From Flavobacteria bacterium BBFL7 (GTDB lineage Bacteria > Bacteroidota > Bacteroidia > Flavobacteriales > Flavobacteriaceae): 64,000 nucleotides of DNA. Below the pieces are notes generated by a model, which ran no database searches, was not told where the DNA came from, and saw only the letters and a program-made list of their open reading frames with translations. The stretch covers positions 168,352 through 232,351 of the forward strand of contig CH672375.1 of the NCBI GenBank assembly GCA_000153385.1, read 5' to 3'. How positions within the stretch are numbered: position 1 is the stretch's first letter; every line of letters starts with the position of its first letter. A program made the translations under genes and the position numbers. This document shows, piece after piece, positions 10,409 through 45,234 of this stretch.

Positions 10409-11371
10409 TTATAAAAATCTACCATTAATTCTCTCTTCATTTTCATAGTCAGAATTTAAAATCGGCTTTTTCATGGATGTTTTTTTGCCACTTTTCTGAC
10501 CGGTCTGATGACAATAAGACTCTTTATAATGGAAATTAGCATATTTCAACCAACTCCTATATGCATTATAAGACATTGGCTTTTTGGGATTGAAAGGTAT
10601 TTCTTCACCGGTTCTAATACAATAGCCTATCTCTTGATTATTTCGTGTTTGGGAATTGTGGACTACCTTTTTTTTCTTATAAGTATTAGATTGTTGTCTT
10701 TTTATCATTTCCTCTTGTCGCTTTTCAGATCTTGATTTAAGCAAAGGAATTACTTCCTTATCATCCAGTGAAACAATATCTATGTCTTGATAAACAATAC
10801 GTTCATAATTTCTTTCTCTAGGATTAAAAGAGTCAAATAAATCTAAAAGAACCTGAGATCTTAAATAGGTTTTACTTAAACCTAAAAGGGCTTTTTTATA
10901 GACTGGACGTTGAATAAAAATACAATGAGCACTTTTCTCAAGCAACTCATCATGAACGTCTAAGTGTTCTTCATATACTTTTTCATTTAATCGGCTCTTA
11001 CTAAAGCCAACACCATATTCTACATTATTCTCTGCAGAGTAATCATATAGATTCATTGATGTGATAATACCTTGAGATTCGTTCACATAGCTTTTTGCAT
11101 GCAAACGTGGTTCATAAATAATCGAAACGTTAGGAAATGATTTAAAATATTCAAGATCATCACTATTGACGCTTTTGTAAAAATCATCCTCGTTTTTGCC
11201 GAAAAGAATGTGCAGATAAATAGAAGGATCATTTTTTATAAGGTCAAAACGCTCTTTAAAGTGATCATCTAATTTTATATAGGGTGATGTAATAAACAAA
11301 AATTTCTTTGTATTGATTATTACATCATCAATTGCATCATTTAATTCGTCTCCTGTTAAAAATGTACTCAT
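10409..11371 (-). CDS. Phospholipase-D-like (HKD) protein with C-terminal Cys motifs
   Basis: The N-terminal ~125 residues form one PLD-superfamily module. It opens with FLFITSPYIKLDDH and carries the signature LHAKSYVNE (His91, Lys93), followed by ITSMNLYDYS. One HKD half implies a homodimeric nuclease or phosphodiesterase. After a helical linker, the C-terminus has two matching Cys-x-x-Thr-Gly elements (YCIRTG at 250 and YCHQTG at 286) around a conserved IPFNPKKPMS segment. This suggests a small zinc-binding or DNA-binding module. It lies 39 bases downstream of hsdR on the same strand, so it is probably co-transcribed with the restriction genes. A nuclease role in defence is inference. Confidence 0.78.
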   Translation of the reverse strand: MSTFLTGDELNDAIDDVIINTKKFLFITSPYIKLDDHFKERFDLIKNDPSIYLHILFGKNEDDFYKSVNSDDLEYFKSFPNVSIIYEPRLHAKSYVNESQGIITSMNLYDYSAENNVEYGVGFSKSRLNEKVYEEHLDVHDELLEKSAHCIFIQRPVYKKALLGLSKTYLRSQVLLDLFDSFNPRERNYERIVYQDIDIVSLDDKEVIPLLKSRSEKRQEEMIKRQQSNTYKKKKVVHNSQTRNNQEIGYCIRTGEEIPFNPKKPMSYNAYRSWLKYANFHYKESYCHQTGQKSGKKTSMKKPILNSDYENEERINGRFL

Positions 11372-11410
11372 ATTATTAAATAGTAATCTTATATTTCAAA
11401 TAAATAGTTC

Positions 11411-14287
11411 TTACCCAGTCATTCCTTGCACAAACACTTGCACAAATTCACGCATTTTATCTAAAATACGCTCGCCTATTTCTCTTGCTTTTAATATACT
11501 TGGTCTATTGTCTAAGCATTTAAAAATATCATCACGCAGTGGTTCTCTACCATAATTAGTATAGCTTTCTATCAAAGCTTTGAACTGCTTTTTATCTAGA
11601 TGTTCTTCTTCACACATTTTAGAGAGTGCCATGACTTTTTCTTCATGCCAGAAACGTTCAAACTCATCTTGTATCGCATCTATATCGCTGATATATGGTA
11701 AATTTTCTTCTATAAATTTTTCTATGAGTTCGCGTTTGCTACGCAACTCAATATCTCCAGAAAGCATATCGATGATCACTTTCTTCTGTGCTGCCGCATC
11801 ACTTGCTTTTGATTCTTTTAACTGAGCCAGTAATTGTAAAATGTAGGCGACATTAATTTGATCACGATGAATTAATTCCAACTCAAAATCAATATCATCG
11901 AGAATGGACGTTTTTTGTTTTGTATGATCGTTCTTTACCTTTTCATTTAAGTCCAGATATTTCCCTTTATAATCTTCAAAGGTTTGCTCATCCATGCCTA
12001 AATCTTCCCAATCAAAATCGGTATAAGATTCTAGGACATTCTTTGCTCGCAGTAAACGTCTAAAAGCCAATACAAAAGCAAGCTCATCATCTTCACTTAT
12101 TAAATCATCGACGTTTTGATAAGTAGGTACTATTTCTAATAACTCTATTAAAGCATCGTCAAATTTCTTTGCGATAGATTCATAAGGTGGTAAGATGATT
12201 TCTTCTATCGCATCTTTGTTTGAAAATAAGGTAATCGCCTCATCAGTAGCTTTTTTAAGGTTTCTAAAAGCCAGTATATTTCCTTGCGATTTTTGTTCTC
12301 CTAGAATTCTATTGGTTCTAGAATAGGCTTGAATAAGACCATGGTATTTTAAGTTCTTATCTACATAAAGTGTATTCACTTTTTTGGCATCAAAACCGGT
12401 GAGCATCATATTTACCACGATAACTAAATCTAGTCTGTTTTTATCTTGAAAGTTAGTTTTCTCTCGTTCTTTCAAACGCTTTGAAATGTCTTTAAAATAA
12501 TTTTCAAACTGCTGACTATCTTTAGTTGAAAAACTAGTTCCATACATATTGTTATAATCCACAATGTACTCGTCTAGTTTTTCTCTAGAATGACTGGTTT
12601 TATATTGTGGTTCAGGTTCTGCAGCCTGACGCATTGGTTGATTAGTGGCAGGCAAGTTATCTTGTGCGTCTTCATCATCTTCATTGGCACCATAAGAGAA
12701 AATGGTGGCTATGCGCAAATCGTGTAAACCTTCTTCTTTTTTACGTTTAAAGATGTCGTAATACTTGATTAAAGTATCAATATTACTTACCGCAAACAAA
12801 GCCGAATAGTCTTTATTAAAGGTCTTGTGACTGTGATAAGCGATGATGTAATCTGCAATTTTCTCCAGTCGTTTAGGATCTGCAAATACCTCTGCTTTAT
12901 CGATATCTTCTACTTCTATATCAATAAAGGTATTGCTCTTGCGCTTGTATTTACCGATGTACTCAATCCCAAATCGCAGTACATTTTGATCCTTAATCGC
13001 ATCTGTAATCACGTATTTGTGAAGACATTCTCCAAACAAATCTTTGGTAGTACGTTTTCCTAGATCATTTTTAGAGGCATTTTTTGCAAAAATGGGTGTT
13101 CCTGTAAATCCAAAAAGTTGGCTTTTATGAAAATACTCCGTGATTTTTTTGTGTGTATCACCGAACTGGCTTCTATGACATTCATCAAAAATGAAAACTA
13201 CCTTTTTATCCTGTAAATGCGTTAAGCTCTTTTCATAGTTTGCTTTAGAAATCGCGTTGTTCAACTTCTGTATGGTCGTTAAAACCAATTTTGAATCGTC
13301 TGTGAGCTGTTTTACCAGCGATTGTGTGTTATCGGTAACGTCTACACTATCTTTTTTAAAGCTATTGAACTCGAGCATGGTCTGGTAATCCAGATCTTTA
13401 CGATCTACTACAAAGACTACTTTATGCACATTAGGCAAGTCCATAATGACCTGGCTGGTCTTAAATGAAGTCAGCGTTTTACCAGATCCTGTGGTATGCC
13501 ATATATAGCCATTATCGTTACTGGTCGCTACTTGATTGACTATTTTTTCTGTAGCATAGAATTGATACGGTCGCAATACCATGAGAATCTTGTGCGTCTC
13601 ATTATGTACCACATACTGAGCTATCATCTTGCCTAAATGGTTGGTATTTAAAAACGCTTTCGCGAAAGCGGAAAGATCAGTAACATTCTTGTTATTTACA
13701 TCTGCCCAGAAGAACGTTTGCTTAACCGATTGCAATTTATTGTTTGCGAGATATTTGGTATTACCGCCGTTGCTTATCACAAACAGTTGCACATACTGGA
13801 ACAAGGCACGAGAAGACCAAAACGAATGACGCTGGTAGCGATTGATCTGGTTAAAGGCTTCTTTAATTTCTACACCGCGACGTTTTAACTCGATTTGCAC
13901 CAGTGGCAAACCATTAACTAGCAGCGTGACATCATAGCGATTTTTATACGTTCCTTCTTGAGTGATTTGATGAGTCACCTGAAACAGATTGCTGTTCCAG
14001 TTTTCTTTATTGAAAAAACGCACATACAGACTATCACCATTTTCTCTAGTTAGTTGAAAACGGTCGCGCAAGGTTTTGGCCTTTTCAAATACGTTTCCTT
14101 TTTCTAGGTGATTAAGAATGGTTTCAAATTCACGATCAGAAAACACGGTATTATTAAAAGCTTCTAGCTGCTTTTTTAAATTATGGATTAATGCATCACT
14201 AGTAGTAATGGTTACTTTTTCATAACCTAAACCTACTAGTTGTGCGATCAACTCGTTTTCTAACTGTGCTTCTGACTGTTTACTCAT
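11411..14287 (-). CDS. hsdR: Type I restriction enzyme, R subunit
   Basis: HsdR supplies the ATP-driven translocase and nuclease of a type I restriction enzyme. The 958-residue protein has the PD-(D/E)xK nuclease near the N-terminus (Asp119, Glu133-Leu-Lys135, QINRYQ). A superfamily 2 motor follows, with Walker A TGSGKT at 266-271, DECH at 368-371 and a TGTP motif. The helical C-terminus probably binds the methylase core. Length is normal for the family. Its ATG lies inside the end of the GIY-YIG gene (8-base ATGAGTAA overlap), indicating translational coupling. An iterated palindrome encodes AFAKA at residues 207-211, between the nuclease and motor domains. The gene looks intact. Confidence 0.95.
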   Translation of the reverse strand: MSKQSEAQLENELIAQLVGLGYEKVTITTSDALIHNLKKQLEAFNNTVFSDREFETILNHLEKGNVFEKAKTLRDRFQLTRENGDSLYVRFFNKENWNSNLFQVTHQITQEGTYKNRYDVTLLVNGLPLVQIELKRRGVEIKEAFNQINRYQRHSFWSSRALFQYVQLFVISNGGNTKYLANNKLQSVKQTFFWADVNNKNVTDLSAFAKAFLNTNHLGKMIAQYVVHNETHKILMVLRPYQFYATEKIVNQVATSNDNGYIWHTTGSGKTLTSFKTSQVIMDLPNVHKVVFVVDRKDLDYQTMLEFNSFKKDSVDVTDNTQSLVKQLTDDSKLVLTTIQKLNNAISKANYEKSLTHLQDKKVVFIFDECHRSQFGDTHKKITEYFHKSQLFGFTGTPIFAKNASKNDLGKRTTKDLFGECLHKYVITDAIKDQNVLRFGIEYIGKYKRKSNTFIDIEVEDIDKAEVFADPKRLEKIADYIIAYHSHKTFNKDYSALFAVSNIDTLIKYYDIFKRKKEEGLHDLRIATIFSYGANEDDEDAQDNLPATNQPMRQAAEPEPQYKTSHSREKLDEYIVDYNNMYGTSFSTKDSQQFENYFKDISKRLKEREKTNFQDKNRLDLVIVVNMMLTGFDAKKVNTLYVDKNLKYHGLIQAYSRTNRILGEQKSQGNILAFRNLKKATDEAITLFSNKDAIEEIILPPYESIAKKFDDALIELLEIVPTYQNVDDLISEDDELAFVLAFRRLLRAKNVLESYTDFDWEDLGMDEQTFEDYKGKYLDLNEKVKNDHTKQKTSILDDIDFELELIHRDQINVAYILQLLAQLKESKASDAAAQKKVIIDMLSGDIELRSKRELIEKFIEENLPYISDIDAIQDEFERFWHEEKVMALSKMCEEEHLDKKQFKALIESYTNYGREPLRDDIFKCLDNRPSILKAREIGERILDKMREFVQVFVQGMTG
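13655..13670. repeat. Iterated palindrome copy inside hsdR
   Basis: A perfect CGCTTTCGCGAAAGCG read on the coding strand as Ala-Phe-Ala-Lys-Ala, residues 207-211 of HsdR, in the linker between the nuclease and helicase domains. Confidence 0.92.
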
Positions 14288-31109: not shown

Positions 31110-31430
31110 TTTTTATTTTCAATATACCAACAGATTTACAAGAATATTCTTAATGCTTTACGAATTAACTTGAATTTTAGATGTTATAACCAACACATTT
31201 TTAAAAAGACGCTACATAACACGATTATTACAAAGCTCTTTTCAGATGCCGTCATCATGACATTTAGTGTTAAAAGATGTTAAGTAATCAAGTTGGCATT
31301 TCGTGGGATGAAACCGACCGTTGAATAAATAACTATTGTAGAACCATTAATTATTTCTCTAATTGAGCTTGTTAAATTGAAGAAACCTGAACAATAGTAA
31401 AAGGTGACTTTTTATCTAGATATAGACATT
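31110..31430. other. Intergenic region upstream of the five-gene surface operon
   Basis: About 320 bases without a credible gene. It must contain the divergent promoters for the stress operon and the large surface operon. I find no perfect TAnnTTTG element within it and no riboswitch that I can name. Confidence 0.5.
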
Positions 31431-33149
31431 ATGGGGAAAGATGTTCAAATCGTTTTTACATTGTTGATTTGCTTGTTGGTTTGTTCACAGGCCAGTAAAG
31501 CACAAGATGAAGAAAAAGATAAGAAGTCACCCGTCCAGGTGACCGGTAGTTTAGGCTTTTACTACGACTACTACTCCTACACGCAAGAAAACTATGCCAC
31601 TTTCAGGCCACGCTACCCAGAAAACCTTCTTAGGCTTAATGCTCAGATGAGTTTTCAATTCGGAAAACATTTCAGTATTCCTATAAGTGTTAATGTCACA
31701 AATCAAGATGTGCTTTATAATCTCCCTAGTGTACCAGAAGAAAGTGCATTAGATTATATTCAAAATCCTGCAAATAACATTAGTATCAATCCTAAATACA
31801 AATGGGCTCAAGGTTTTTTTGGCACACAAACTCCGTTATACACACCTTTAACGACAGGTGATATTCCCATATTTGGCGCTGGTTTAGAAATCAATCCAGG
31901 TAAATTTATACTATCTGCAGCCGTTGGAAAATCTCAACGTGCTATAGAACCAGATATATCATTAAATATTCCAGGTGCTTATGAGCAAAGTATCATCACT
32001 GCACGTATAGGAGTGGGAAAAATAGATGGCTCAAAGTTCACTTTTAATCTAGTAAGAGTAAGAGATCACAAAAACTCTGTATTATCTAATCCTATAGGAG
32101 TAGAACCTATTGAAGGGCTTACAATCTCTCCTTATGCAGAATTTAAAGTTTTTAAAAAACTAAACATCCGTACGGAGACTGCTGGATCTATATTCACCAA
32201 AGATCTCTTTAACAATGGTAGCATCGATGAAGAATACATAACAGCAGTAGAAGATTTTATTACCGTTAATGCAAGTACTACTGCAGATTTTTCTCATAAC
32301 TCACGCATAGACTGGAAAGGAGATAAATTTCAATTAGGTGGAGAAATTCAGTACATCGGGCCAGGTTTTTTACCTGTAGGTTATCGATTTGTAGAACGAG
32401 ACATTCTAGATTACAAACTCAATACTGGAATGAAGCTATTTAATAATAAGGTAAACTTTACAGGTAGTTTTGGGATCAGGACTAATAATTTAAATGATAC
32501 GAAGTTATCCTCGACAGAACGTATTATTTCAAACGCAAATTTATTTGCTCAAATAACTGAATCGTTTTCTATCAACCTCAATTACAGTAATTTTGGATTT
32601 AAGAATGATGCAAATTTATTAAATCAGCGCATTGAATTGGTAAATAACTCTATCACTATTTCTCCTTCCTACACCATTAAAAGTGAGAAATACATGCATC
32701 TATTTACGGGTAATATAGCACTCAATAGTTTTGAGCAATTTGATGTGGTAAATAACGCTTTCGCGAAAGCGGAAAACTCCACCTACTCTGTCAATTATAA
32801 CATGTCCTTTTTAAAAATGCCTCTTCAAATAGGTGTACAAGGTATATATCTTGAAAACCAATTGCCTACTGGAGATTTTACCATGTTAAACTATGGTGTA
32901 ATAGCTAGTTATAAGATGTTAGATAAAAAATTAACTCCATCGATAGGATTCAATTTTGCACATGTAGATGTACCAAGTTTTACTACAGACTATAGAAAAA
33001 ACTTAAACGTGAAGTTAGGCTATAAACTAACTAAAAAACTGCAATGTAAATTACAGTATCGCTATACAAACTTTAGATATGGTAACTCTAAACCTGGTGC
33101 AGCACTGGACCAAAACAGAGTTCAATTCTCTATTCAACAACGATTTTAA
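31431..33149 (+). CDS. Outer-membrane beta-barrel protein, first gene of a surface operon
   Basis: A 572-residue product from ATG 31431. An upstream GTG at 31404 would spoil the signal peptide MGKDVQIVFTLLICLLVCSQ and SKAQ. The mature protein is made of amphipathic strands throughout (for example KFILSAAVGKSQ, LNTGMKLFNNKVNFTGSFGI, QCKLQYRYTNFRYG). It ends FSIQQRF, with the terminal Phe expected for BAM-dependent insertion. No TonB box or plug is present, so it looks like a closed pore, anchor or export platform. It lies 11 bases before the gene for the ~2,140-residue protein, which it may present at the surface. No family is recognised. Confidence 0.78.
   Translation: MGKDVQIVFTLLICLLVCSQASKAQDEEKDKKSPVQVTGSLGFYYDYYSYTQENYATFRPRYPENLLRLNAQMSFQFGKHFSIPISVNVTNQDVLYNLPSVPEESALDYIQNPANNISINPKYKWAQGFFGTQTPLYTPLTTGDIPIFGAGLEINPGKFILSAAVGKSQRAIEPDISLNIPGAYEQSIITARIGVGKIDGSKFTFNLVRVRDHKNSVLSNPIGVEPIEGLTISPYAEFKVFKKLNIRTETAGSIFTKDLFNNGSIDEEYITAVEDFITVNASTTADFSHNSRIDWKGDKFQLGGEIQYIGPGFLPVGYRFVERDILDYKLNTGMKLFNNKVNFTGSFGIRTNNLNDTKLSSTERIISNANLFAQITESFSINLNYSNFGFKNDANLLNQRIELVNNSITISPSYTIKSEKYMHLFTGNIALNSFEQFDVVNNAFAKAENSTYSVNYNMSFLKMPLQIGVQGIYLENQLPTGDFTMLNYGVIASYKMLDKKLTPSIGFNFAHVDVPSFTTDYRKNLNVKLGYKLTKKLQCKLQYRYTNFRYGNSKPGAALDQNRVQFSIQQRF
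32756..32771. repeat. Iterated palindrome copy inside the barrel gene
   Basis: A perfect 16-base copy read as Ala-Phe-Ala-Lys-Ala in NNAFAKAENST, at what looks like a loop between two strands. Confidence 0.92.
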
Positions 33150-33160
33150 ATCACTTGATT

Positions 33161-36100
33161 ATGAAAAAGTTATTATTAATATTAGTTTTTGCAAGCGGTT
33201 GCCACTGGGCTCAAGCACAATTACAAGCTACACTCAATGTAGATTCAAATCCTACTCCAGAGTTAAGTGAATGGGTAAATCGCAATAATCTGGCAATATT
33301 GACGGTGACTAATCCTGTAGCCGGACTTACCATCGATTATCAGATCAAAGTAAGTCTTTTATTAGATGGTGATGTAAAATTGAGCACTGATCAATCTGTA
33401 CCATATATGAGTGCAGACTTTGGGACAGAAACATTCCTAGCCGATGAACTTATCCCTTATACAGCTGTACAATTTATAGATACTAAATTTAGAGATCAAG
33501 TATCACGTACTGGTATGTTACCACCAGGTTCTTATAGTTTTTGTGTTGAATTAATTGATCGTGAAGGACGTAGTTTAACTCAACCTGAGCAAATTTGTAG
33601 GCCGATGATTATCACAGATTATCAAATGCCAGAACTACTATCTCCAGTTGATGGAAAAATAATAGATCCTTTATTAATCAATAGTTTAATGTTTCAATGG
33701 ACACCACTAGTTCCTGTACCAGATGCTATGACAGGTATCACTTATCTTATTGCTGTAAGTGAAGTACAACCAGGACAAACACCAAGTCAAGCCTTTAGTG
33801 TTAACTACCCTATTATTGAGGAAGAAGTAACCATAGGAACACAATACGTATGGCCACTAGATATCCCAGCACCAGATGAAGATCAACAGTATGTATGGGG
33901 AATTAAACCTATGACCCGAGAAGGAAATACCTATAGAGCACAAAATAATGGTTTTGTAGATTATGGAGTGTTTACCGTACGTGGTAATAATGAAAATACT
34001 GATCAAGATGATAATCAAAGTAAAGATTTGAATCAAAATGATATAACCACTAGAACAAACGATTACAATTGTGGAGTTAACATCGTAGAACTAGGGAATA
34101 AAATGTATTTTACTAATAACGGTAGTGCCTCTTATCTAAGCTTAGAAGGTATTAGCCTAGCTCAAACTTACTATTGGTCAGAAGTTGTAGGTACTATAGA
34201 CCCAGCTCAATATCAGTTGATGACCACTATAGATTGGGGTTGTTCAAACCATTTAGACATCGTGAATTACAACACGTTAAGTGCTTCCCACGATTATAAT
34301 AACCCATCTGATTATGCTATTTCTAATACTTCAGAAGTAACCATAAAGATGCAATTAATACCTACCAACCCTACAGATCCTGCTTGTGAAATTGAAGTAG
34401 TGAAAAGAATAAAAAAAGTTATAAAAGATCAAGATGATCAAACTGATATACAAGTAACAGCTGGATCTAAAGACTGTGTGATACCTTCACAATCAGATTT
34501 TGAAAATATTGTAAACTTTATAAATACCTCTCCAGGTAATCCTCTCTCTATTGCCATAGCTGATGTTCAGGCTTTTACGACCTCACTAAGAGCTGAAGTA
34601 GCTCAAGGCGGAAGCCTTACAGATGTAAGTACCAGTCTAATCGTAGATTATGGTGGTAATCATAGTCTAGAATCAGAAGGCGACGGAAATGATATAGTTT
34701 TAGATCATACCTATGACTTTATCTGTAAGGCCGGAACAGACGTGCCTCAAAAAATCTGTCTTACCTATAAAATATATCGTTCTATAAATGGGGAAGTAAC
34801 TTTTTGCGAACAAACTTATTGTCTTGAATTACCAGCTGAAACAATTGCAGCCATCGATAATTTAGAAGAGCCAGGAACAAATGACGATGTTAAAAATGGT
34901 GATGATTCCTGTACATGTTTAGATGAAAGTCCTATTATAGTTCCAGATCTTACCATGGACTATACCGCAAATGGAGCTGGCACAGAACATACACTTACCA
35001 TTCCTGATTCTCCTGCTACACTACAATCCATTATAGACTGCATGGCTAGTCAAGAACAATTTGAAGGTATGGAGAACATGGATGGACATCCAGAATATAA
35101 CTTTCAAGAAAGCTTTTTTACAGGTACCGTTACTCATCAATGGCATATACCTGATGCCATGAATGACCCCAATAATTCTCATATATTTACGGTTTTAGAA
35201 GATACTGACGAACCTCTACCTGAATTTGTCACGGTCACCTTCCATATCACAAATACCAATGCAGGAATCGATTGTTATTTTACTCAAGATGTACCTGTAC
35301 CACATGATGCTTACAATGCAATAAACGGAACTGAAGAATGTGAGTGCGATGTAGAAACTACTGCACCTGAGCTAGTGCTTTTACGACCTCAACCTACTGA
35401 AGAACCTATGCAAATTTCTCTAGGTGGCGTGATAGCGTATAGAGATCACTTAATGAATTGTAACAGTAATTATAGTCTTGCTACACATAGTATGGAAGTA
35501 ACCCTGAATTGGGCTCCAGATGTAGAGGAAAGCTCTGTAAGCAGTGGTCCATTTGTACATGACTATTCTGCAGAAAATCCTATACCAGAGCAAATTTGTG
35601 CTACATTCACAATTACACCTTTATTTCCATCTAGCGATGGTCAAGCTTGTACAACCGTAGTTTGTGTAGACGTTCCTGAAGAATGGTTAGCGCTAAATGA
35701 AGTTACAGAAGGTGATGGAGAACTGGATGCTGGTGATTCCATTTTTGCAGGAGAACACGTTGAAGGATTAGGTGAATTTGAAATCATTGTAGATACTATT
35801 GATGACGAAGCTCCATTTACCGGTACTGGTGTAACTTATGTTCCTTGGTTACTAGCAAATATAGCAGTAGAATTTACAGACATTACGGTAGATGATGATG
35901 GAAATTTAGTTACTGGCGAAATTACAGCTGTTATGTCCGATGATGCTCCAGCGATCTCTTATGGTTGCGTAGGTATGGGACATGATGACGCTGGTGATAT
36001 TCAAGAATGGCTTACTACAGATGGACAAATTGTAGATTACAATCCAGCGATTCCGTTTTTACCGCCATTAGAAGCACCTTTTGGGATCACTTTTGACAGT

Positions 36101-39100
36101 GGTGATGTGATTGCTGTAAGTCAGATGGTTTTTAAACCTACTAAATCAGAATTTAACTTATTAGCGATCAAACAGTTTGAACCTGATGTGAATCCAGATC
36201 AGGTATTAGGTTTTAAAGCCTGTGATACAGACTTTCATCCAGCGGCGCCAGTATGGCCACCAGAACGATTAGAGCTATTAGAAGATATCACACTAGGTAA
36301 TGTAAATAATAAAATCACTTTCACTTTTAAAGCACCAGTTCCCGGAACTAGTCCAGGATGTTTTATAGAATGGGGCGAGCTAGGAATAACAAACTATGCA
36401 GTTGAAATAGATGTAGACTTTACTAGAGAATGGTTAGTACCTGTTGATGAAGTAGATGGAACAGAAAAATCTACAGCAAACTTTATAGGAATGGGAACTG
36501 CCTGGGATGGTATTGTATTGATAGGTAATCTAGAAGAATCCATTATAGCAGCAACCATTCCTAATCCAGATGATGGAACACCTACAGATACAGGAGCTCA
36601 CGACTTCATCATCCTAGCAGATGAGATTTCTATGGACATGGCAGATACTATGAACACACCAGGAATTACCTTTCCTCCTATTTATACAGGGGAAACTACA
36701 AATTTGTTCAGAGGATTTTATATGGATGAATTAACCGTGAAATTCTCACCTAATAAAATGAATACACCTGGAGGCGATCCTATAGAAGTAAGTATTAATG
36801 ACATGATCATTGATAATACTGGTCTTACCTTAACTGCTGAAGTTGAAAATCTGATTGCTTTTGGCGGTGCAGAGGTTGCAGATATGGTAGCAAGTGTAGA
36901 TCGTGTCTATTTAGAAATCTTATCCAGTAATTTTGTGGAAGCTGGTGTTGAAGGGCGCATTGCCATTCCAGTTAATGAAGGAAATGGACTGGATAACTCA
37001 CTGGCTTATACGGCCTTATTTAATAATCCATTGGATCCTTCATTGAATAATAACTTTCAAATCATTTTAGAACCAGATCAGCCTATACAGAATGATCTTT
37101 TTGGTGGTGGACAGTTCACATTAAATGATACATCAAATCTCTCAGGATATTTTGATAAGGATAAAAAAACCTTTACCATGGACCTTAATGGTGATTTTGC
37201 TTGGGAAGATGCTACGGTAGGTCCTGTAGATCAAATTAATATGAAATTAAGTTTTGAAGGATTAGGGTTTGATTATGACAGTAGCCTTGCTTCTAATAAA
37301 TTAACTTTTGATGAAGGGAATTGGGCATTTGCTAGTCCACAGAAAAAAGTTGCAAACTTTCCAGTTACTATTGAAGAAATAGAATTCAATCAGATGCCTA
37401 CAACTGGTAATCAACTACTACATGGTAAGCTTAATTTTGATGTTATTTTTAATCTTTCTTCAAAAATAGGAGGCCGCTCTACATTAGGTATAGAAGGCGC
37501 TATAGCCGACACAAAAATGAGTGGTGGTAAAACTTTTGATCCAGAATTAATAGGAGTTGTAGTAGACTCTATAAGTGTTACTGCAGATCTAGCTGCTGTT
37601 AAAATTAATGGCGCTATAGGGTTCAGAGATAATCATCCTACATATGGTAATGGCTTTATAGGCACATTAGAGGCAGAATTTAAAGCTGGAGGAATTAAAG
37701 TAGGTGCCCTAGCAGAATTTGGCAATACTACTTATAATCATACCAGTCCATATCGATACTGGCGTGTTGAAGCTGGGGCTACTTTTCCAGCTCCAGGAAT
37801 TACATTTTTACCAGGAGTTGCTTTCAGAGGTTTCGGTGGTGGAGCGTTTAAAAATATGATTGCAACACCTGATGGCAGTGATTTTATCTTCACTCCACAA
37901 TATGATGAGCTAGGTTTCAGAGCCAATGCAGTGATTGCTACAACGCCTAAAGAAGAAACGTTTAATGCAGATGTTGGTTTACTAGCAGCATTCTCGGGTA
38001 GCGGTGGTATGACTAACATCGCTTTTACCGGAGACTTTTTTGTAGGTGCTAAACTATCTGACCGTAGTAAAGCAAAAATAGATGGCGATGTTGGTGTCAG
38101 CTACAATTTTCCAGATAAACGTTTTATAATGAGTGCTAGCGTAAATGTTAACGCGCCACCTATAACCACTCCTAGCCCTGTAAACCTTATACTAGATATC
38201 GATGGGAAGAAAAATGAATGGTTCTTCAAATTTGGCGAGCCAGATAATTTAAATAATGTTGATATCAGCAATATCTCGTTATATGAATACCTCATGTTTG
38301 GTAACAAGATACCTTTCCCAGGTGGATTTACTACAACCTTTAAAGATAATTATTATAGCGCAGTAGGTAACTATCCATATGCTGGTTCTACCGGTACAGG
38401 TGGCGTGGGCAGTAACACAGAACAAGGTAAAGGATTTGCGATGGGTATAGGTTTTATGTTTGATGAAAATGGAGAATATAATATTTCAAACTTCGGTAGT
38501 GGAGAAAAGAAACATGTTTTGGGATGGGATCTTGCCGCTGGGGCAGAATTACATCTTTCATACATGCAATATGTAGGGTCTTGTGGTGGATACACACCAT
38601 TAGGGATCAATGGCTACCGTGCTAAAGGTGGTTTAGGTATGTATGGAACCGCCAGTGCAAAAGTGACTAGATTTAGAAAAAATGGTAGTACTAAATGGAA
38701 TATCAATTTAGCTTCTATCAAAGCAGGTGCATGGATTACAGGAGAGTTTCCTAAGCCAGTTTATGCAGCTGGAGCTGTTGAAGGAGAAGTAGGATTATTT
38801 GATGACTTGATCTCATTCGATTTTTATCAAGCATTTGAGTATGGTACCTATTGTAATAATGGAGGAGCTAGCTCTGGTGCGGCGGTAACTCAAGGAGATG
38901 CTGCCGCAGACCAACAAAATGCATTAATCACCTATGTTAAAGCAAGTCCTAGTGCAGAGTTTCCATTAGACCAACCCGTGATTGCAAAATTTGGACTGAC
39001 ACCTGATGAGGTTTTTGATGTTAGTGAACAACAAGCTAATGGTACGGTTAAAATGCGAACTTTTAAAATGGTAAAAACCCAATCATTAAAAATTGAGAAT

Positions 39101-39586
39101 GAAACGACAGGAGCCTGGGAATTTGTAAATATATCAGAATCTCAAAATAATTTAGGTGAGTATCTATATGTAACCCATGCGACTGGTCTATCTGCTAGTG
39201 CAGCTGTAGTAGCTTTGCCTCCAGCGCCCACTTTTGGATTATTAGGAATTGCGGCACCAGCGACCACTTACACTTCATCACCATCAATGGGAATCTCAGG
39301 TGTATCACCTATGACCGCAATGGCAGGACCTAGTATGTTAACATCTTATCCAGTTACACCTAGTAGTGATTATGATGATTTACCACCAGATCAGGATCCG
39401 GTTTTAAATGACTTACTGGATGACCGCAGGTATAAATTTACGGTAACCGCTACCTTAAAAGAGTATGTAAATAATAGTTGGGTAAACGCGGTTCAAAATA
39501 ATGGCACTCCTGTTAATCAAACTATTACTAAGCTATTCAGTACAGGTCCCATGACTGCTGTATCTGCCGGAGCCGCAACATTTTAA
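33161..39586 (+). CDS. Giant secreted multi-domain protein (2,141 residues; TANFOR-like)
   Basis: From ATG 33161 (a TTG at 33155 is less likely) the protein has a signal peptide ending WAQAQ. Next is an N-terminal beta-domain (ATLNVDSNPTPELSEWVNRN) that I associate with flavobacterial TANFOR proteins, then an MG/FN3-like domain (LMFQWTPLVPVPDAMTGITY). Several segments are separated by Cys-x-Cys elements (SCTCLDES, ECECDVET). The middle is Asp-rich, and a long glycine-rich beta region (GTLEAEFKAGGIKVGALAEF and beyond) leads to a terminal YKFTVTATLKEYVNN domain. I see no type IX secretion tail and no enzyme motif. It is probably a filament- or scaffold-like surface protein; the function is unknown. 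Confidence 0.75.
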   Translation: MKKLLLILVFASGCHWAQAQLQATLNVDSNPTPELSEWVNRNNLAILTVTNPVAGLTIDYQIKVSLLLDGDVKLSTDQSVPYMSADFGTETFLADELIPYTAVQFIDTKFRDQVSRTGMLPPGSYSFCVELIDREGRSLTQPEQICRPMIITDYQMPELLSPVDGKIIDPLLINSLMFQWTPLVPVPDAMTGITYLIAVSEVQPGQTPSQAFSVNYPIIEEEVTIGTQYVWPLDIPAPDEDQQYVWGIKPMTREGNTYRAQNNGFVDYGVFTVRGNNENTDQDDNQSKDLNQNDITTRTNDYNCGVNIVELGNKMYFTNNGSASYLSLEGISLAQTYYWSEVVGTIDPAQYQLMTTIDWGCSNHLDIVNYNTLSASHDYNNPSDYAISNTSEVTIKMQLIPTNPTDPACEIEVVKRIKKVIKDQDDQTDIQVTAGSKDCVIPSQSDFENIVNFINTSPGNPLSIAIADVQAFTTSLRAEVAQGGSLTDVSTSLIVDYGGNHSLESEGDGNDIVLDHTYDFICKAGTDVPQKICLTYKIYRSINGEVTFCEQTYCLELPAETIAAIDNLEEPGTNDDVKNGDDSCTCLDESPIIVPDLTMDYTANGAGTEHTLTIPDSPATLQSIIDCMASQEQFEGMENMDGHPEYNFQESFFTGTVTHQWHIPDAMNDPNNSHIFTVLEDTDEPLPEFVTVTFHITNTNAGIDCYFTQDVPVPHDAYNAINGTEECECDVETTAPELVLLRPQPTEEPMQISLGGVIAYRDHLMNCNSNYSLATHSMEVTLNWAPDVEESSVSSGPFVHDYSAENPIPEQICATFTITPLFPSSDGQACTTVVCVDVPEEWLALNEVTEGDGELDAGDSIFAGEHVEGLGEFEIIVDTIDDEAPFTGTGVTYVPWLLANIAVEFTDITVDDDGNLVTGEITAVMSDDAPAISYGCVGMGHDDAGDIQEWLTTDGQIVDYNPAIPFLPPLEAPFGITFDSGDVIAVSQMVFKPTKSEFNLLAIKQFEPDVNPDQVLGFKACDTDFHPAAPVWPPERLELLEDITLGNVNNKITFTFKAPVPGTSPGCFIEWGELGITNYAVEIDVDFTREWLVPVDEVDGTEKSTANFIGMGTAWDGIVLIGNLEESIIAATIPNPDDGTPTDTGAHDFIILADEISMDMADTMNTPGITFPPIYTGETTNLFRGFYMDELTVKFSPNKMNTPGGDPIEVSINDMIIDNTGLTLTAEVENLIAFGGAEVADMVASVDRVYLEILSSNFVEAGVEGRIAIPVNEGNGLDNSLAYTALFNNPLDPSLNNNFQIILEPDQPIQNDLFGGGQFTLNDTSNLSGYFDKDKKTFTMDLNGDFAWEDATVGPVDQINMKLSFEGLGFDYDSSLASNKLTFDEGNWAFASPQKKVANFPVTIEEIEFNQMPTTGNQLLHGKLNFDVIFNLSSKIGGRSTLGIEGAIADTKMSGGKTFDPELIGVVVDSISVTADLAAVKINGAIGFRDNHPTYGNGFIGTLEAEFKAGGIKVGALAEFGNTTYNHTSPYRYWRVEAGATFPAPGITFLPGVAFRGFGGGAFKNMIATPDGSDFIFTPQYDELGFRANAVIATTPKEETFNADVGLLAAFSGSGGMTNIAFTGDFFVGAKLSDRSKAKIDGDVGVSYNFPDKRFIMSASVNVNAPPITTPSPVNLILDIDGKKNEWFFKFGEPDNLNNVDISNISLYEYLMFGNKIPFPGGFTTTFKDNYYSAVGNYPYAGSTGTGGVGSNTEQGKGFAMGIGFMFDENGEYNISNFGSGEKKHVLGWDLAAGAELHLSYMQYVGSCGGYTPLGINGYRAKGGLGMYGTASAKVTRFRKNGSTKWNINLASIKAGAWITGEFPKPVYAAGAVEGEVGLFDDLISFDFYQAFEYGTYCNNGGASSGAAVTQGDAAADQQNALITYVKASPSAEFPLDQPVIAKFGLTPDEVFDVSEQQANGTVKMRTFKMVKTQSLKIENETTGAWEFVNISESQNNLGEYLYVTHATGLSASAAVVALPPAPTFGLLGIAAPATTYTSSPSMGISGVSPMTAMAGPSMLTSYPVTPSSDYDDLPPDQDPVLNDLLDDRRYKFTVTATLKEYVNNSWVNAVQNNGTPVNQTITKLFSTGPMTAVSAGAATF

Positions 39587-39595
39587 ATAAGAAGC

Positions 39596-41665
39596 ATGAA
39601 AAATTTTCAACCCATTATATTCATAAGTTTTTTGTTTTTAGGTCTCGCTTTCGCGAAAGCGCAACAAGAACCAATTACCATTATTAAAACAAAAGGTAGA
39701 TTCATTAACAACAGTGTAGAATTACGATTTTTCCCAGATCGTAAAAGCACCATGAGTCTAGCTTTTAAAGATGGTTTAATAATAGAGAGATCCACTGGAA
39801 CCGCCAGTGAATTTAAAGAAATAGGACGCACCATTCCATATGATGAAAGAGAATGGCAAGAAGCCATAAAGGCGGCGCCTACTGAAGATGCAAGAAATGA
39901 AATTGAACTAGCACAAGACTTCTATTTAGAATTGTCAAAAGATCAAGGTGGCTCATTGAGTTTTAAAGATGGAATAGGTGAACTTAAAAATCAAAAGGCA
40001 GCAGAAGATTTTCAGCTTATGATTTCCTTACTTACCGCTATAAAAAATGCTGAAGCAGCAAAAGGATTAGGTTTCTCTTATATAGATAACACAATAGAGA
40101 ATGGAGTCAACTATTCATATCGTGTGAGACTGGCAGCTACTTCTTCTACTTATAAAATCGAATCGACCGTATTCGATATAAAAGCGACAACACAAGGTAA
40201 TGTACTTAAAAATAAAGTTTTTGTAAAAACCGGTGATACTGAACTAGGCTTTGTTTGGAATGACCATCCAGATCTAAGCGGTGTGGATGTAGAAAGAACT
40301 GTTAACGGAAAAAATGTAAAATTAAACAATGCCCCTATTTATGCGATAAGAGGTAGTTCTTATGATGGTCCAAAACGCACCGGATTTAATGAAGATAGTT
40401 TAGTTAACTATCAGAAATATACTTATCGATTTTATGCGCAAACCTTATTTGGAGAACGTGTACAATTTGCAGAAGTCACTGCTATGCCTCGCGATAGAAC
40501 GCCTCCACAACAACCATTTTTAAAACAACCTCAACATGCAAAGCCAGATGAGGTACACATAGAATGGGAAATGAAGGCGCCTATTGAAAGTGATTTAAAG
40601 GGTTTTGCTATTTCAAGATCTGAAAAGAATAATGGTGAATTCCGCTTATTACATGATAAGGTTTTACCATCTAGTGCTCGCACATTTATAGATAAGAGTT
40701 TTCTCTTAGGTAAGACTAATTATTATCTTGTTCAAGCGGTTGATACTGCAAACAATGTCAGTTCATCATTTCCAGTCGCAGTAACTTTAATAGATAGCAT
40801 TCCTCCTTCTCAACCTATTTTTATCAAAGGAAAAATTGATAGTACGGGAATAGTTACAGTAGAAATTAAAAAGAATCCAGAAAGTGATTTAATGGGATAT
40901 CGATTATATCGATCTAATGCTAGCGAGCATGAATTCTCTGCAATTAAAGAAAGTTTTATATCAGTGGATAGTATCGATAGTAAGGTGAAAACCGTTTACC
41001 TCGACACTGTGACATTAAAATCTTTAACACCATACATCTATTATAAAGTTGAGGCATTAGATTTTAACCACAACACCTCTAAATTTTCAGAAATATTAAA
41101 GGTAAAAAGACCAGATAAAATTGCACCAACCACACCAGTATTTAAAAAAATAAAATCTACACAAGATTATATAGAAATGAACTTTTCACTTAGCAAAAGT
41201 ATTGATGTAAAGGAGCAAGTTTTATATCGTAAAACAGATTTAAAAGCAGCATGGGAAAGATATGAGACACTTGATGAAGGACAACAGTCCTTTATAGATA
41301 AAAAAGTTAAAAAAGGTACCGTTTATTATTATAGCCTTAGAGCAATTGACGAAAGTAATAATGCCTCTAAATATGCAATTCCTGTACAAGGAAAAACATT
41401 TGACACTGGCGTGAGACCACCAGTAGAAAATCTAAAAGCAATTTCTCAAAATGGCAAGGTAATGTTAACATGGAACTACAAACAGAAAACTGAGGACACT
41501 TATTTTGTAGTTTACAAAAAGAATCGACAAGGTCAATTTGTTCAACATGGTAGGAGTTTAGAATTACGCTTTAGCGAAAGCGAAACCAAAAATAGCATCT
41601 ATGCCATTAAAGTCTTTACTACTGACGGTGGGCAGTCTAAATTAAGTAAAGAAGTAAGTATTTAA
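39596..41665 (+). CDS. Secreted fibronectin-III-like repeat protein
   Basis: A 689-residue protein with a signal peptide whose end, LAFAKAQQ, is written by the iterated palindrome. At least four fibronectin-III-like modules follow, each with a Trp/Tyr core and strands such as DEVHIEWEMKAPIESDLKGF, TNYYLVQAVDTANNVSSSFP, YYKVEALDFNHNTSKFSEIL and YYSLRAIDESNNASKYAI. Such repeats mediate protein or polysaccharide contact outside the cell. It starts nine bases after the giant gene and precedes the sensor kinase by 16 bases. It probably acts with the giant protein at the surface. Confidence 0.8.
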   Translation: MKNFQPIIFISFLFLGLAFAKAQQEPITIIKTKGRFINNSVELRFFPDRKSTMSLAFKDGLIIERSTGTASEFKEIGRTIPYDEREWQEAIKAAPTEDARNEIELAQDFYLELSKDQGGSLSFKDGIGELKNQKAAEDFQLMISLLTAIKNAEAAKGLGFSYIDNTIENGVNYSYRVRLAATSSTYKIESTVFDIKATTQGNVLKNKVFVKTGDTELGFVWNDHPDLSGVDVERTVNGKNVKLNNAPIYAIRGSSYDGPKRTGFNEDSLVNYQKYTYRFYAQTLFGERVQFAEVTAMPRDRTPPQQPFLKQPQHAKPDEVHIEWEMKAPIESDLKGFAISRSEKNNGEFRLLHDKVLPSSARTFIDKSFLLGKTNYYLVQAVDTANNVSSSFPVAVTLIDSIPPSQPIFIKGKIDSTGIVTVEIKKNPESDLMGYRLYRSNASEHEFSAIKESFISVDSIDSKVKTVYLDTVTLKSLTPYIYYKVEALDFNHNTSKFSEILKVKRPDKIAPTTPVFKKIKSTQDYIEMNFSLSKSIDVKEQVLYRKTDLKAAWERYETLDEGQQSFIDKKVKKGTVYYYSLRAIDESNNASKYAIPVQGKTFDTGVRPPVENLKAISQNGKVMLTWNYKQKTEDTYFVVYKKNRQGQFVQHGRSLELRFSESETKNSIYAIKVFTTDGGQSKLSKEVSI
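39646..39661. repeat. Iterated palindrome copy in a signal peptide
   Basis: A perfect 16-base copy encoding the AFAKA just before the likely cleavage site of the fibronectin-III-like protein, residues ~18-22. Confidence 0.92.
41567..41582. repeat. Variant palindrome (one mismatch) near the end of the FN3-like gene
   Basis: CGCTTTAGCGAAAGCG differs from the consensus at one central base. It is read as Arg-Phe-Ser-Glu-Ser, the third possible frame of the element. Confidence 0.8.
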
Positions 41666-41681
41666 TAGTATTTTAGTCACA

Positions 41682-44510
41682 ATGATAAAAGTATGGATTT
41701 TAACTGCTCTCTCAATCGCCTTTAACTGGAGCGCAGCACAATCTTATACCAACTATTCTGAAAAAGATGGTTTACCCAGCAATCATGTTTATAAAATTAC
41801 TCAAGATGTAAAAGGCTTTATCTGGATCGCTACAGATGAAGGATTAGTAAAATACAACGGTACTCATTTTAAAGTTTTCACTACTCAAGAAGGCCTTCCT
41901 ACAAATGACATCTGGAATATTTTTCCAGCTAGTGATGGTAAGCTGTGGTATATCGCAAAAAGTACTAGTATGGGATATATACTAGACGATGTTGTATATG
42001 ATTTTAAAAATAAAGAAAAAGATGTAGCTATTGATCCTATTTGTACTGGATTTACCGGTGATACCCTAATTGCTTCTGGTATTTTTTATTCCCATATTCT
42101 TAACTCAGATTTAGAATGGGAAAAAATGAATTACAACACGGTTGATGGTTATTCTAACGTGTCATATTTATCACATAAACACCTCAAAGGTCTCGTTGTT
42201 AAAACCTTAGGTAGTAATAATATAAAAGCTTTAACTAAGGAAAATAAACTAATATCCTTAAAAGATACTTTGTTCTCATTTAGCAGTCATTCTAGAGGTC
42301 AATTAACTGATTCTCTTTATGTTGATAATGCTCTTCTTTCTTATGGCTTTATCAATTTAAACAGCCTAAAATCTAGTAGATATACTTATGAAGATGAATT
42401 AAATATTCCTTTTTTAAAATACTCACGCCTACATCTCGCTAATAATGAAATACAATTAACCGGAGAGAATGTTGTCGCAAAACTAGGATCACAACTAAGA
42501 GTGACAGACCTTATTCACATCCCTAAAGATTTAAAATCACATTATTCGTTTATAGATAAAGAAAATACGGTATGGATCGCAACATTTTCAAATGGAATCT
42601 ATAAGTATTCTTTAAATGAGAGACTTATTAAAACTGAATTAAGCCACTCAAAGATTATTAATATTAAACGTGTTGGTAAGAAGATTATCGCACTAGTAAG
42701 TGGTAAAGGTTTTTATGAGTATGACCAAAAGACCAATAGCTTTCTTCCATTTATAGAAAGTAAAAATTTCCTTTATGACGCTGACTATTTAAAAGAAACA
42801 AATACTTCTTATTATATCACTAAGAAGAATATTTATTCCATTTCAAATAACGAAAAGGTCAATCAATATTTTGACCTTGTAAATGAAACGGCACGATCGG
42901 TGACTTTTCACGATGGATTTATTTATGGTCCGTTCACATTGGGCGCTAATAAGCTAGCGCCTTATAGTTTAGAAATCATGTCATCTTATAACTTAAGTGG
43001 TTTGCGCAGTATCAACACTTTAAATGATCGCCTAATTTTAGGAGGATCAAATGGACTTTATGAATTATCAGATGAAAAGGTTACAAGAATTGAATCATTG
43101 AAAGATTTTAAAAAGCCTGTTATCGACATCGCTACTATTAATGATCGTGCGCTATTAGTTTCTACGAGTGGATATGGTGTATATCAGACAGATTTAAATA
43201 CCATAGAATTATTAGAAGGCAGTGAATTTTTAAAATCTAATCATGCTTGCATGGTTGATAACCAACTCTATTTACCTACTAATAAAGGTATTTATAATTA
43301 TGAATTTGTAAATGATAAATTTCAACTCAATCGAGTCTGGAATAATAGTAATGGACTACCGACTAATAAAATCAATGGAATTGAGAAAATTGACCATCAA
43401 TTACTGGTAGCTACAAACCAAGGAATCATACACTACCCTATTGATTACTCTTCGTCTCAATCCTTACTAGACCTATATGTTGATAAAGCCTTTTATGCCG
43501 ACAATAATTTAAAAACAAATAAAGTCACTAGTTATTATAAGAATAGTGATTTACAGATTGTGGTTAATAGTATAGATTACAGAGACAATAATAAGGTTCA
43601 ATACGAATTTAGGTTACTTCCTACTCAAGCTAGTTGGACAGTGGCAAATTCTGCAAATCTTAATTTTTCAGATTTAAATCCTGGTAATTATACACTAGAG
43701 TTACGTAATGAAAACTTAGTAAAAAGGTTTGACTTTCATCTAGAACCACGCTGGTATCAAAGTTGGTGGTTTTTCTTAATCGCTTTACTAGTAGCCTTAA
43801 CCATTATTATATTAGTCACAAAAACTCTTACTAAAAGATCTGAAGAGAAGAAAAATAGAGACTTATCGCAGGCTCAAAAACTATCAGAATTACAACTTAA
43901 AGCCTTGAGATCACAAATGAATCCTCATTTTGTATTCAATTCTCTTACCGCTATTCAATATTATATTAATGAAAATGATTTTGAAACATCTGATCGATAT
44001 CTAGTAAAATTTTCCAGATTGATTAGAGAGTTTTTTGAACTCAGTAAAGAGCAACATATTACCATAAAAAGAGAGATTGAACTTTTAAAAAACTATCTAG
44101 ATCTAGAATCATTACGATTTAATAATAAACTGGATTATAAGATTGAAGTAGATCCTACTCTGGACCTTAAAGACATTATTCCTAGCATGCTATTACAACC
44201 TATTGTTGAAAATGCAGTAAACCATGGAATTTTCAATAAACCTATTGCAGGATTAGTGATCGTTAAGTTTGTAAAACTTAATAGTGAACATATTCAAATT
44301 CATATTATTGATGATGGTGTAGGTTTAAAATTTAATAATGATGATATGAGGTATAAATCATCATCTGTACTTGATGATCGTTTAAAATACCTCAAAGCTT
44401 CTGGACTATGGGAAATTGTTATCCATAGAGGTCCTGCTTTTAATGACAGTAATTATCCTGGTCATGAAGTCATCTTTGATCTTAAAAAATTAAGTAATGA
44501 AAATATATAA
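41682..44510 (+). CDS. Two-component-propeller sensor histidine kinase (LytS/YpdA-type)
   Basis: The 942-residue protein has a signal peptide, then a periplasmic propeller of short repeats (GLPSNHVYKITQDVKGFIWI, ATDEGLVKYNGTHFK and later LPTNKINGIEKI). A Y_Y_Y-like domain (VQYEFRLLPTQASWTVA) precedes one membrane helix (~690-712). The cytoplasmic part has the His-kinase motif QMNPHFVFNSL with His749, a QPIVENAVNHGI ATP-binding N box and DDGVGL. Such kinases sense extracellular or periplasmic ligands, often polysaccharides, and signal to a LytTR regulator. Its stop overlaps the regulator gene by 14 bases, so the pair is coupled. In this operon the ligand may be the surface structure itself. 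Confidence 0.9.
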   Translation: MIKVWILTALSIAFNWSAAQSYTNYSEKDGLPSNHVYKITQDVKGFIWIATDEGLVKYNGTHFKVFTTQEGLPTNDIWNIFPASDGKLWYIAKSTSMGYILDDVVYDFKNKEKDVAIDPICTGFTGDTLIASGIFYSHILNSDLEWEKMNYNTVDGYSNVSYLSHKHLKGLVVKTLGSNNIKALTKENKLISLKDTLFSFSSHSRGQLTDSLYVDNALLSYGFINLNSLKSSRYTYEDELNIPFLKYSRLHLANNEIQLTGENVVAKLGSQLRVTDLIHIPKDLKSHYSFIDKENTVWIATFSNGIYKYSLNERLIKTELSHSKIINIKRVGKKIIALVSGKGFYEYDQKTNSFLPFIESKNFLYDADYLKETNTSYYITKKNIYSISNNEKVNQYFDLVNETARSVTFHDGFIYGPFTLGANKLAPYSLEIMSSYNLSGLRSINTLNDRLILGGSNGLYELSDEKVTRIESLKDFKKPVIDIATINDRALLVSTSGYGVYQTDLNTIELLEGSEFLKSNHACMVDNQLYLPTNKGIYNYEFVNDKFQLNRVWNNSNGLPTNKINGIEKIDHQLLVATNQGIIHYPIDYSSSQSLLDLYVDKAFYADNNLKTNKVTSYYKNSDLQIVVNSIDYRDNNKVQYEFRLLPTQASWTVANSANLNFSDLNPGNYTLELRNENLVKRFDFHLEPRWYQSWWFFLIALLVALTIIILVTKTLTKRSEEKKNRDLSQAQKLSELQLKALRSQMNPHFVFNSLTAIQYYINENDFETSDRYLVKFSRLIREFFELSKEQHITIKREIELLKNYLDLESLRFNNKLDYKIEVDPTLDLKDIIPSMLLQPIVENAVNHGIFNKPIAGLVIVKFVKLNSEHIQIHIIDDGVGLKFNNDDMRYKSSSVLDDRLKYLKASGLWEIVIHRGPAFNDSNYPGHEVIFDLKKLSNENI

Positions 44511-45234
44511 AGCAATACTCGTTGATGATGAGCAATCTGCACTTAAAAACTTAGAGAAGAAGATTGAAAAGGTTAATCAAAATGTGCGCGTAGAAGCTTC
44601 TTTTCAAGATTCCAAAAAAGCCCTAGAATATATCAATACTCATCAGACAGATATTCTATTTCTAGACATTCAAATGCCAGGACTTAATGGATTCGAACTA
44701 TTAAATAGTATTAAAGAATTAAAGTCTCAAGTTATTTTCTCTACAGCATATGGTGAATATGCACTTGAAGCAATTAAAAAAAATGCTGTCGATTACATTC
44801 TCAAACCGGTAGATAATACAGAGCTTAAAGAGGCATTAGATAAAGCTATTCTTAATATCGAAAAAGAGAACGAAGATCAAAATGCAAACCTCGTAGAATT
44901 ACTTAATAAAATTATAGATCGAGATCATAAATTAAAAGTACCTACACAAAAAGGGATTTCATTTATACCTCAGGAAGAAGTCATCCATCTAGAAGGTTAT
45001 GATGGATACACTAAAATCCACCTGGTAGATGGAAAAACGTTAACTAGCTCTTACAGTTTAGGCAAATTTAGCGACTACCTAGATGACTATTTTTTTAAAT
45101 GCCACAAATCACATATAGTCAATATAAAAGCAGTAAGAGCCTTTGAAAATGAAGGTTATGTTGTGTTGGGTAATGATTATCGCGTGCCTATTACTAAAAC
45201 CTATAAACAGGCTTTTCTGGAGTTATTTAGTTAG
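44497..45234 (+). CDS. LytTR-family response regulator
   Basis: A 245-residue response regulator. The receiver domain has the acidic pair Asp10-Asp11, phospho-acceptor Asp57 in LFLDIQMPG, Thr83 and Lys103 in YILKP. The C-terminal LytTR domain (KVPTQKGISFIPQEEVIHLE, YFFKCHKSHIVNIKAVRAF) binds DNA as a tandem-repeat regulator. It overlaps the sensor kinase gene, and an incomplete palindrome lies nine bases after its stop. It probably controls this operon; no target boxes were identified by eye. Confidence 0.92.
   Translation: MKIYKAILVDDEQSALKNLEKKIEKVNQNVRVEASFQDSKKALEYINTHQTDILFLDIQMPGLNGFELLNSIKELKSQVIFSTAYGEYALEAIKKNAVDYILKPVDNTELKEALDKAILNIEKENEDQNANLVELLNKIIDRDHKLKVPTQKGISFIPQEEVIHLEGYDGYTKIHLVDGKTLTSSYSLGKFSDYLDDYFFKCHKSHIVNIKAVRAFENEGYVVLGNDYRVPITKTYKQAFLELFS

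Follow-up and report, generated by a model that had tools for sequence, protein, structure and literature searches.

A giant exported protein with a TANFOR-like region joined to a conserved core in a candidate sensor-coupled surface module of Flavobacteria bacterium BBFL7

Five adjoining genes of Flavobacteria bacterium BBFL7, which encode an outer-membrane barrel, a giant exported protein, a fibronectin-III (Fn3)-like protein, a sensor kinase and a LytTR regulator, raise the question of what such a set might do at the cell surface. They lie in the window, i.e., the whole 64,000-nucleotide stretch that was analyzed (positions 168352-232351 of contig 1 in the searched 3.1 Mb source assembly of 7 contigs). 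An operon of this make-up could be a self-monitoring apparatus, as the original prediction had it, and its features are collected in Table 1.

Table 1. Features of the operon and its surroundings, in window coordinates
Feature	Position	Strand	Description
Conserved upstream stretch	31265..31340	+	Well kept relative to N. ulvanivorans (two sequences compared); two TGTTAA copies 10 bases apart
Barrel gene	ATG 31431 to stop 33149	+	572 aa, outer-membrane beta-barrel protein, no plug recognized (ORF, Pfam, family alignment A4)
Giant gene	ATG 33161 to 39586	+	2141 aa exported protein: TANFOR region, linker, AGDF-type block, conserved core
Divergent TANFOR region with Fn3-like part	33215..33979	+	Giant residues about 19-273 (profile-profile)
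'AGDF' block (name coined here)	35702..35965	+	Precedes the core; pattern match by eye
Conserved giant core	36068..38860	+	Residues about 970-1900
Giant C-terminal part	38861..39583	+	Common to its clade; end resembles a stand-alone core stretch; no toxin recognized
Fn3-like exported partner	39596..41665	+	689 aa
Propeller-type sensor histidine kinase	41682..44510	+	942 aa (Pfam)
LytTR response regulator	44497..45234	+	245 aa (Pfam)
Palindrome GCTTTCGCGAAAGC	4024, 9658, 13656, 17812, 19731, 23764, 27101, 32757, 39647, 50953, 53671, 60092		

The predicted spacing agrees exactly with the ORF coordinates, which give gaps of 11, 9 and 16 bases and then an overlap of 14 bases, and from this spacing a single transcript may be inferred for the five genes. 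The exported protein of ~2,140 residues that had been proposed corresponds to an ORF of 2141 aa with a signal-peptide-like start, and such N-terminal stretches are also seen in the barrel and the Fn3-like protein (all read by eye); a lipoprotein type of signal peptide for the giant was weighed by eye and dropped. The barrel terminates in a Phe residue, and its Pfam matches are sub-threshold (OMP_b-brl, E 2.4e-5, 25.0 bits against a cut-off of 28.7; Porin_4, E 1.6e-4). Its Pfam listing contains no TonB plug, consistent with the plug-less barrel that had been described, and, also as anticipated, neither a SusCD pair nor a glycoside hydrolase is found by Pfam among the five genes. The Fn3-like protein gives a weak, sub-threshold Pfam match (Tissue_fac, E 8.6e-4). 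The kinase contains His_kinase (E 2.6e-20), Reg_prop and Y_Y_Y domains, and the regulator contains Response_reg (E 2.8e-24) and LytTR (E 1.4e-15) domains. Alternating hydrophobicity is strong in 12.6% of 9-residue windows of the barrel versus 2.7% (sd 1.3) in local shuffles (mean over A4), and in 9.9% versus 3.7% for the core, values that are compatible with beta-rich proteins and nothing further.

Upstream of the barrel gene, the TGTTAA pair is a possible candidate operator. Promoter-like sites in the window are no commoner than in shuffles (57 vs 61.4), while terminator-like sites exceed them (13 vs 6.9, sd 2.2); all three of the latter on the + strand fall within genes, and the site with the most stem pairs (8), at 42941-42962, lies within the kinase gene. 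The window has no Rfam match. As a separate observation, 12 copies of the palindrome GCTTTCGCGAAAGC are present in the window, against a mean of 0.00 in shuffles, and another five in 26.5 kb of the Nonlabens ulvanivorans locus L063; it is absent from seven other loci checked, including 13.7 kb of the Nonlabens MAG locus L064.

The closest relative of the giant is that of N. ulvanivorans (76% in the best segment), which suggests that the source bacterium is allied to Nonlabens. The N. ulvanivorans locus L063 contains all five genes in identical order, and L064, which is cut at both contig ends, likewise shows the five genes in the order of the window. The arrangement is thus not due to chance, and the notion of a chance assembly was ruled out by this synteny together with the co-occurrence described below.

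The N-terminus of the giant is related to TANFOR. Direct searches with the giant return nothing from Pfam, NCBIfam, PHROGs or PDB (by sequence), and the TANFOR model itself, TIGR02542, has no match in the giant or in its genome. When a profile built from three sequences (the window and two Nonlabens) was compared by hhalign with a profile of 24 stand-alone TANFOR carriers, of which 15 match TIGR02542 at E<=0.01 (best 1.2e-12), the two were aligned over 264 columns with a probability of 98.1%, E 1.2e-13 and 22% identity. At the level of sequence profiles, this establishes the homology of the giant N-terminus with TANFOR carriers. The TIGR02542 cut-off of 67 bits is also missed by the carrier of L075 (42.8 bits), even though this protein has an AHH domain; the fused giant of genome G073 scores 16.7 bits, and within the family sample the model is matched in 3/149 genomes at E<=0.001, none of which reaches 67 bits. 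The earlier statement that no characterized counterpart is known must accordingly be amended, since TANFOR toxin loci, as presented in the available part of the account by Jana et al. (PMC7073777), represent a described counterpart of sorts, to whose carriers the giant N-terminus is homologous.

In many stand-alone carriers, TANFOR is followed by the signature GDxxxAGDF...GxVxVPxL...VxFxNIxVNTD, and the giant of the window has its counterpart at about residue 863, directly ahead of the core (both by eye). The giant therefore resembles the front of a carrier attached to a core. Marked by both the TANFOR homology and the AGDF block, this carrier-core fusion, which we regard as established, suggests by Rosetta-stone reasoning that carrier and core are partners. 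A Pfam scan of 13 core members gives only stray matches, and neither the core (A3) nor the barrel (A4) finds a match in profile searches of PDB, while the TANFOR profile (A5) retrieves mainly weak Fn3-type domains (27 sequences at E<=1, best 1.9e-5). The barrel and core families thus carry no Pfam name in the members scanned (the window; 14 barrels; 13 cores).

In a quick, midpoint-rooted tree of 79 cores, for which a warning of long branches that meet applies and whose deep long branches separate the forms, the 12 fused cores require two label changes. The clade of the window comprises the window, the two Nonlabens, genome G047 (fused by hand reading), a Balneolales MAG and a Saprospiraceae MAG, all of which are fused.

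How widely the genes travel together was gauged in two genome samples and in fetched loci. In the family sample of 149 genomes, matching genomes number 15 for the giant, 16 for the barrel and 17 for the Fn3 protein, the extras being G023 (barrel) and G002 and G121 (weak Fn3 matches); the sole other same-genus genome of this sample, G010, has no giant, barrel or Fn3 match. The expected co-conservation of the five genes holds for the barrel/giant/Fn3 unit, which is complete in 15/15 giant-bearing genomes, but not for the whole set, as most relatives lack an adjoining kinase and regulator. Within the class sample of 345 genomes, a search with the full giant reaches 53 genomes and mixes core matches with short TANFOR-only ORFs, so that the core alignment was used for the co-occurrence count. 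The core is present in 44 genomes at E<=1e-10 and the barrel in 72; genomes with a strong core match (E<=1e-40) also have the barrel in 36 of 37 cases, compared with 7.7 expected (p 1.6e-27), the exception being the 80% complete G407, and three of the seven genomes with weaker core matches have it as well. Strong core matches are missing from 36 of the 72 barrel genomes, and hence barrel and this core are not strictly linked; in L150, L151, L152 and L155, the barrel is followed by a TANFOR protein without a recognized core and then by Fn3.

The scan of named genomes yielded 348 candidate stretches, of which 296 encode relatives, and the best 80 loci of these were kept. Their taxa include Flavobacteriaceae, Cytophagales-type families, Chitinophaga, Saprospiraceae, Bacteroidales, Balneolales and an Ignavibacterium MAG. 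Among the 117 distinct cores of the fetched loci, 109 have a following same-strand ORF, which belongs to the Fn3 family in 99. The co-occurrence with barrel and Fn3 and the gene order are established. Bacteroidota have barrel, giant and Fn3 protein as a conserved module, which is also present in Balneolota and Ignavibacterium contigs, and the window locus contains all three families.

Most other loci encode TANFOR and core as separate genes or have the core alone in view; with short-core loci set aside, 36 of the 80 unfused loci show a separate TANFOR gene. Loci with separate carrier, core, Fn3 and SprB are of the kind published by Jana et al., as far as the available text of that work goes (PMC7073777). 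The C-terminal 400 residues of ten hand-picked carriers, a choice that left aside many others, including nine of the 24 A5 carriers, contain nuclease domains in three cases, AHH in L075 and Endonuclea_NS_2 in L079 and L096, and give no match in the other seven. The C-termini of 28 carriers fall into 16 similarity clusters, with one locus counted twice (L042 and L112 share a contig) and with L150 and L151 included, whose carriers may hold an unrecognized core. Large proteins downstream of Fn3 combine SprB repeats with a T9SS sorting domain (Por_Secre_tail) in 5/5 tested, these five being hand-picked from ten listed candidates, one of which is itself a carrier.

Several variants were observed beside these forms. 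Stand-alone cores of 952-1010 residues precede Fn3 without a labeled TANFOR in L153, L164, L166, L167, L169, L171, L173, L175, L176 and L177, with the barrel directly upstream in L166, L167 and L171. In L143, L147, L148, L156 and L157, short TANFOR-only proteins (361-436 aa) have large neighbors of 1,882-2,247 aa, from which they are separated by at most two small genes; none of these loci bears a core or Fn3 label, and a barrel-family ORF stands beside them in L157. In L161 (203-5280), tandem Fn3-family genes (945 and 745 aa) lie downstream of the fused giant. L044 contains two 377-aa genes with near-identical ends (10605-11738 and 12959-14092) between TANFOR carrier and core, which have a lipoprotein-like start (by eye) and are possibly duplicated immunity genes.

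The claim that the apparatus has its own sensor and regulator is borne out as a recurrent feature of the fused form. When the two ORFs flanking the module on either side are considered, and with lineages defined at 60% core identity, same-strand two-component genes occur in 8/21 fused lineages versus 0/45 others (p 3.5e-5), in 10/23 fused loci versus 0/94 others, and in 18/74 versus 0/266 neighbor slots, flank coverage being unequal (74 slots for fused loci, 266 for other loci). Among the core-bearing forms sampled, they thus stand beside the fused form only. Genes adjoining fused loci, together with a few others, supplied the detectors, and the sample was not designed around this question, so that the p-value serves as a guide and a bias of the tally is possible. 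The detectors hit 28 of 761 non-module ORFs of >=150 aa, module-adjacent ones included. L042 and L174 were excluded because they share contigs with L112 and L090, respectively. The 'hk' labels stem from the first kinase profile, in which one of three rows (L041) is out of frame, while the tallies used whole ORFs. L040 (G047), which the profile left unlabeled, was called fused by hand from its N-terminus; its kinase lies further upstream and no two-component gene falls within two ORFs, so it counts against the association. Opposite-strand hits are found in L081 (fused) and L175 (short core), and 3/21 loci without a recognized core have a hit on either strand. The remaining 13/21 fused lineages lack a same-strand two-component gene within two ORFs (for two of them, L070 and L172, no flank is visible); fused units without any such gene at this distance are exemplified by L065, L165 and L178.

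The type of sensor varies. A propeller kinase with a LytTR regulator is found by Pfam in the window and in L168 (G233), where the pair lies immediately upstream of the genes for barrel, fused giant and Fn3 protein; propeller kinases whose regulator is not in view are found in L066, cut by the contig end, and L170. HisKA_2 with LytTR is found in L163, and HisKA_3 with LuxR in L160 and L179 (all Pfam). For four of the eight coupled lineages, the propeller type is not established: L041 (outside the Pfam scan), L160 and L163 (cut by the locus end) and L179. L041 (G073) has the gene order of the window, with a shorter kinase that is alike only over the kinase region and a regulator that is alike over its full length. 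There are at least three kinase/regulator combinations with the fused form, and the pair is not universal. The kinase that follows the Fn3 gene in the Saprospiraceae locus L066 aligns with that of the window at 29% over 829 columns, nearly the whole stretch in view, whereas the kinases of L040, L168, L170 and L041 match only its C-terminal part; as the likeness is mostly C-terminal, with the window/Saprospiraceae pair as the exception, several of the couplings probably arose separately.

On balance, we propose that the locus represents, in a compact and sensor-coupled form without a recognized toxin, the module found around TANFOR polymorphic toxins, and serves regulated surface display. Barrel, giant and Fn3 protein would cross the inner membrane by Sec, and the giant would be held or passed at the outer membrane by the barrel. 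Barrel, core and Fn3 protein may assemble into a complex at which TANFOR docks; this docking region would bring the toxin in toxin loci and, here, the core alone, which would be displayed as a large body rich in beta structure. The propeller kinase is speculated to sense an envelope or surface signal, upon which the LytTR regulator would set the expression of the operon. Capture, adhesion and contact sensing are candidate purposes.

A further-reaching proposal, which we hold only tentatively, is that barrel, core and Fn3 protein constitute a dedicated, T9SS-independent outer-membrane platform that docks TANFOR and its exchangeable toxins, the fused form being self-contained, sensor-coupled and possibly ancestral.

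Propeller kinases are common at glycan loci, and the presence of one beside a barrel suggests nutrient capture, in which the barrel would be an uptake pore and the giant and Fn3 protein surface binders under a propeller kinase. Several regulator types beside fused loci would be expected if each sensed its own substrate; however, the five genes include no TonB plug, SusD or glycoside hydrolase, and the homologues go with toxin carriers, rendering this explanation unlikely.

Somewhat less probable again is a T9SS-exported adhesin apparatus linked to gliding. The source genome has SprA (TIGR04189) and 52 places with the type A sorting domain TIGR04183, and in toxin loci the gene after Fn3 encodes a SprB-type protein that bears a sorting domain; however, none of the 52 places falls in the operon, type B domains having been covered by the Pfam and NCBIfam scans only. 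The Pfam and NCBIfam libraries contain PorV and PorP/SprF models, and neither family is matched by the window barrel (NCBIfam) or by 14 barrels (Pfam), which speaks against this explanation. SprA was also considered as a test of T9SS dependence and rejected because its distribution does not discriminate: it is found in 68/68 tested genomes with core or barrel, in 12/12 without, and in 268/277 genomes of the class to which the window belongs, and co-occurrence with T9SS alone is hence weak evidence for dependence.

The C-terminus bears on the remaining alternative. The last 200 residues are common to five fused giants (the window, the two Nonlabens, the Balneolales MAG and the Saprospiraceae MAG), and the end aligns with an internal segment of stand-alone cores (42 columns, probability 93.3%, E 2.8e-7); Pfam and NCBIfam detect no toxin domain in or beside the giant, and neither an immunity gene beside it nor a SprB gene in the operon was recognized. 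That the giant is a TANFOR antibacterial toxin with a toxic domain not yet recognized, as its homology to the carriers and the new toxin family that Jana et al. found in carriers without a known domain (PMC7073777, in its available part) would allow, is improbable in view of an end that is shared rather than variable and akin to a core interior, an argument that covers this group of five (the other 14 fused giants examined form 10 further C-terminal clusters), and of a downstream order of Fn3, kinase and regulator (gaps 9 and 16) with no immunity-like gene.

Fn3, SprB and sorting domains are enriched near TANFOR genes (Jana, Salomon and Bosis 2020, PMC7073777), T9SS export was proposed there from the neighborhoods and T9SS co-occurrence, and TANFOR is listed among trafficking domains in PMC11796102, each as stated in the available parts of these sources. 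The neighborhood account in PMC7073777, in the part available, describes no barrel, core family or regulator; barrel and core exceed no domain-model cut-off here, which may explain their absence, and the genome set of that study differs from the class sample used here. The open-licence literature searched, in which PMC7073777 is the single listed paper devoted to TANFOR itself, yielded no account that describes this barrel or core, the fusion or the sensor coupling. An outer-membrane barrel family, a giant core family and a specific Fn3 protein, which co-occur and stand beside TANFOR carriers, are added by the present analysis. The carrier-core fusion predicts a physical complex, which makes the question of how TANFOR toxins are delivered directly testable, and initial experiments could use the toxin-less form in Nonlabens as a small system.

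SusCD polysaccharide loci with propeller sensors contain an outer-membrane barrel, surface proteins and a propeller kinase. The window resembles them in its barrel, putative surface proteins and propeller kinase, but differs in that no plug, SusD or glycoside hydrolase is found among its five genes. Like the T9SS shuttle proteins PorV and PorP/SprF, as described in the available part of PMC12618676, the barrel is an outer-membrane barrel encoded next to a very large exported protein, whereas it has no match to those families and the giant has no sorting domain. The closest correspondence is with TANFOR toxins (PMC7073777, in its available part), with which the window shares a TANFOR-homologous exported N-terminus, a very large protein and an origin in Bacteroidota, as well as an Fn3 gene nearby, Fn3 being included in Table 1 of Jana et al.; unlike those toxins, with no recognized toxin, immunity or SprB gene in its operon, the window fuses TANFOR to a giant core and contains its own two-component pair.
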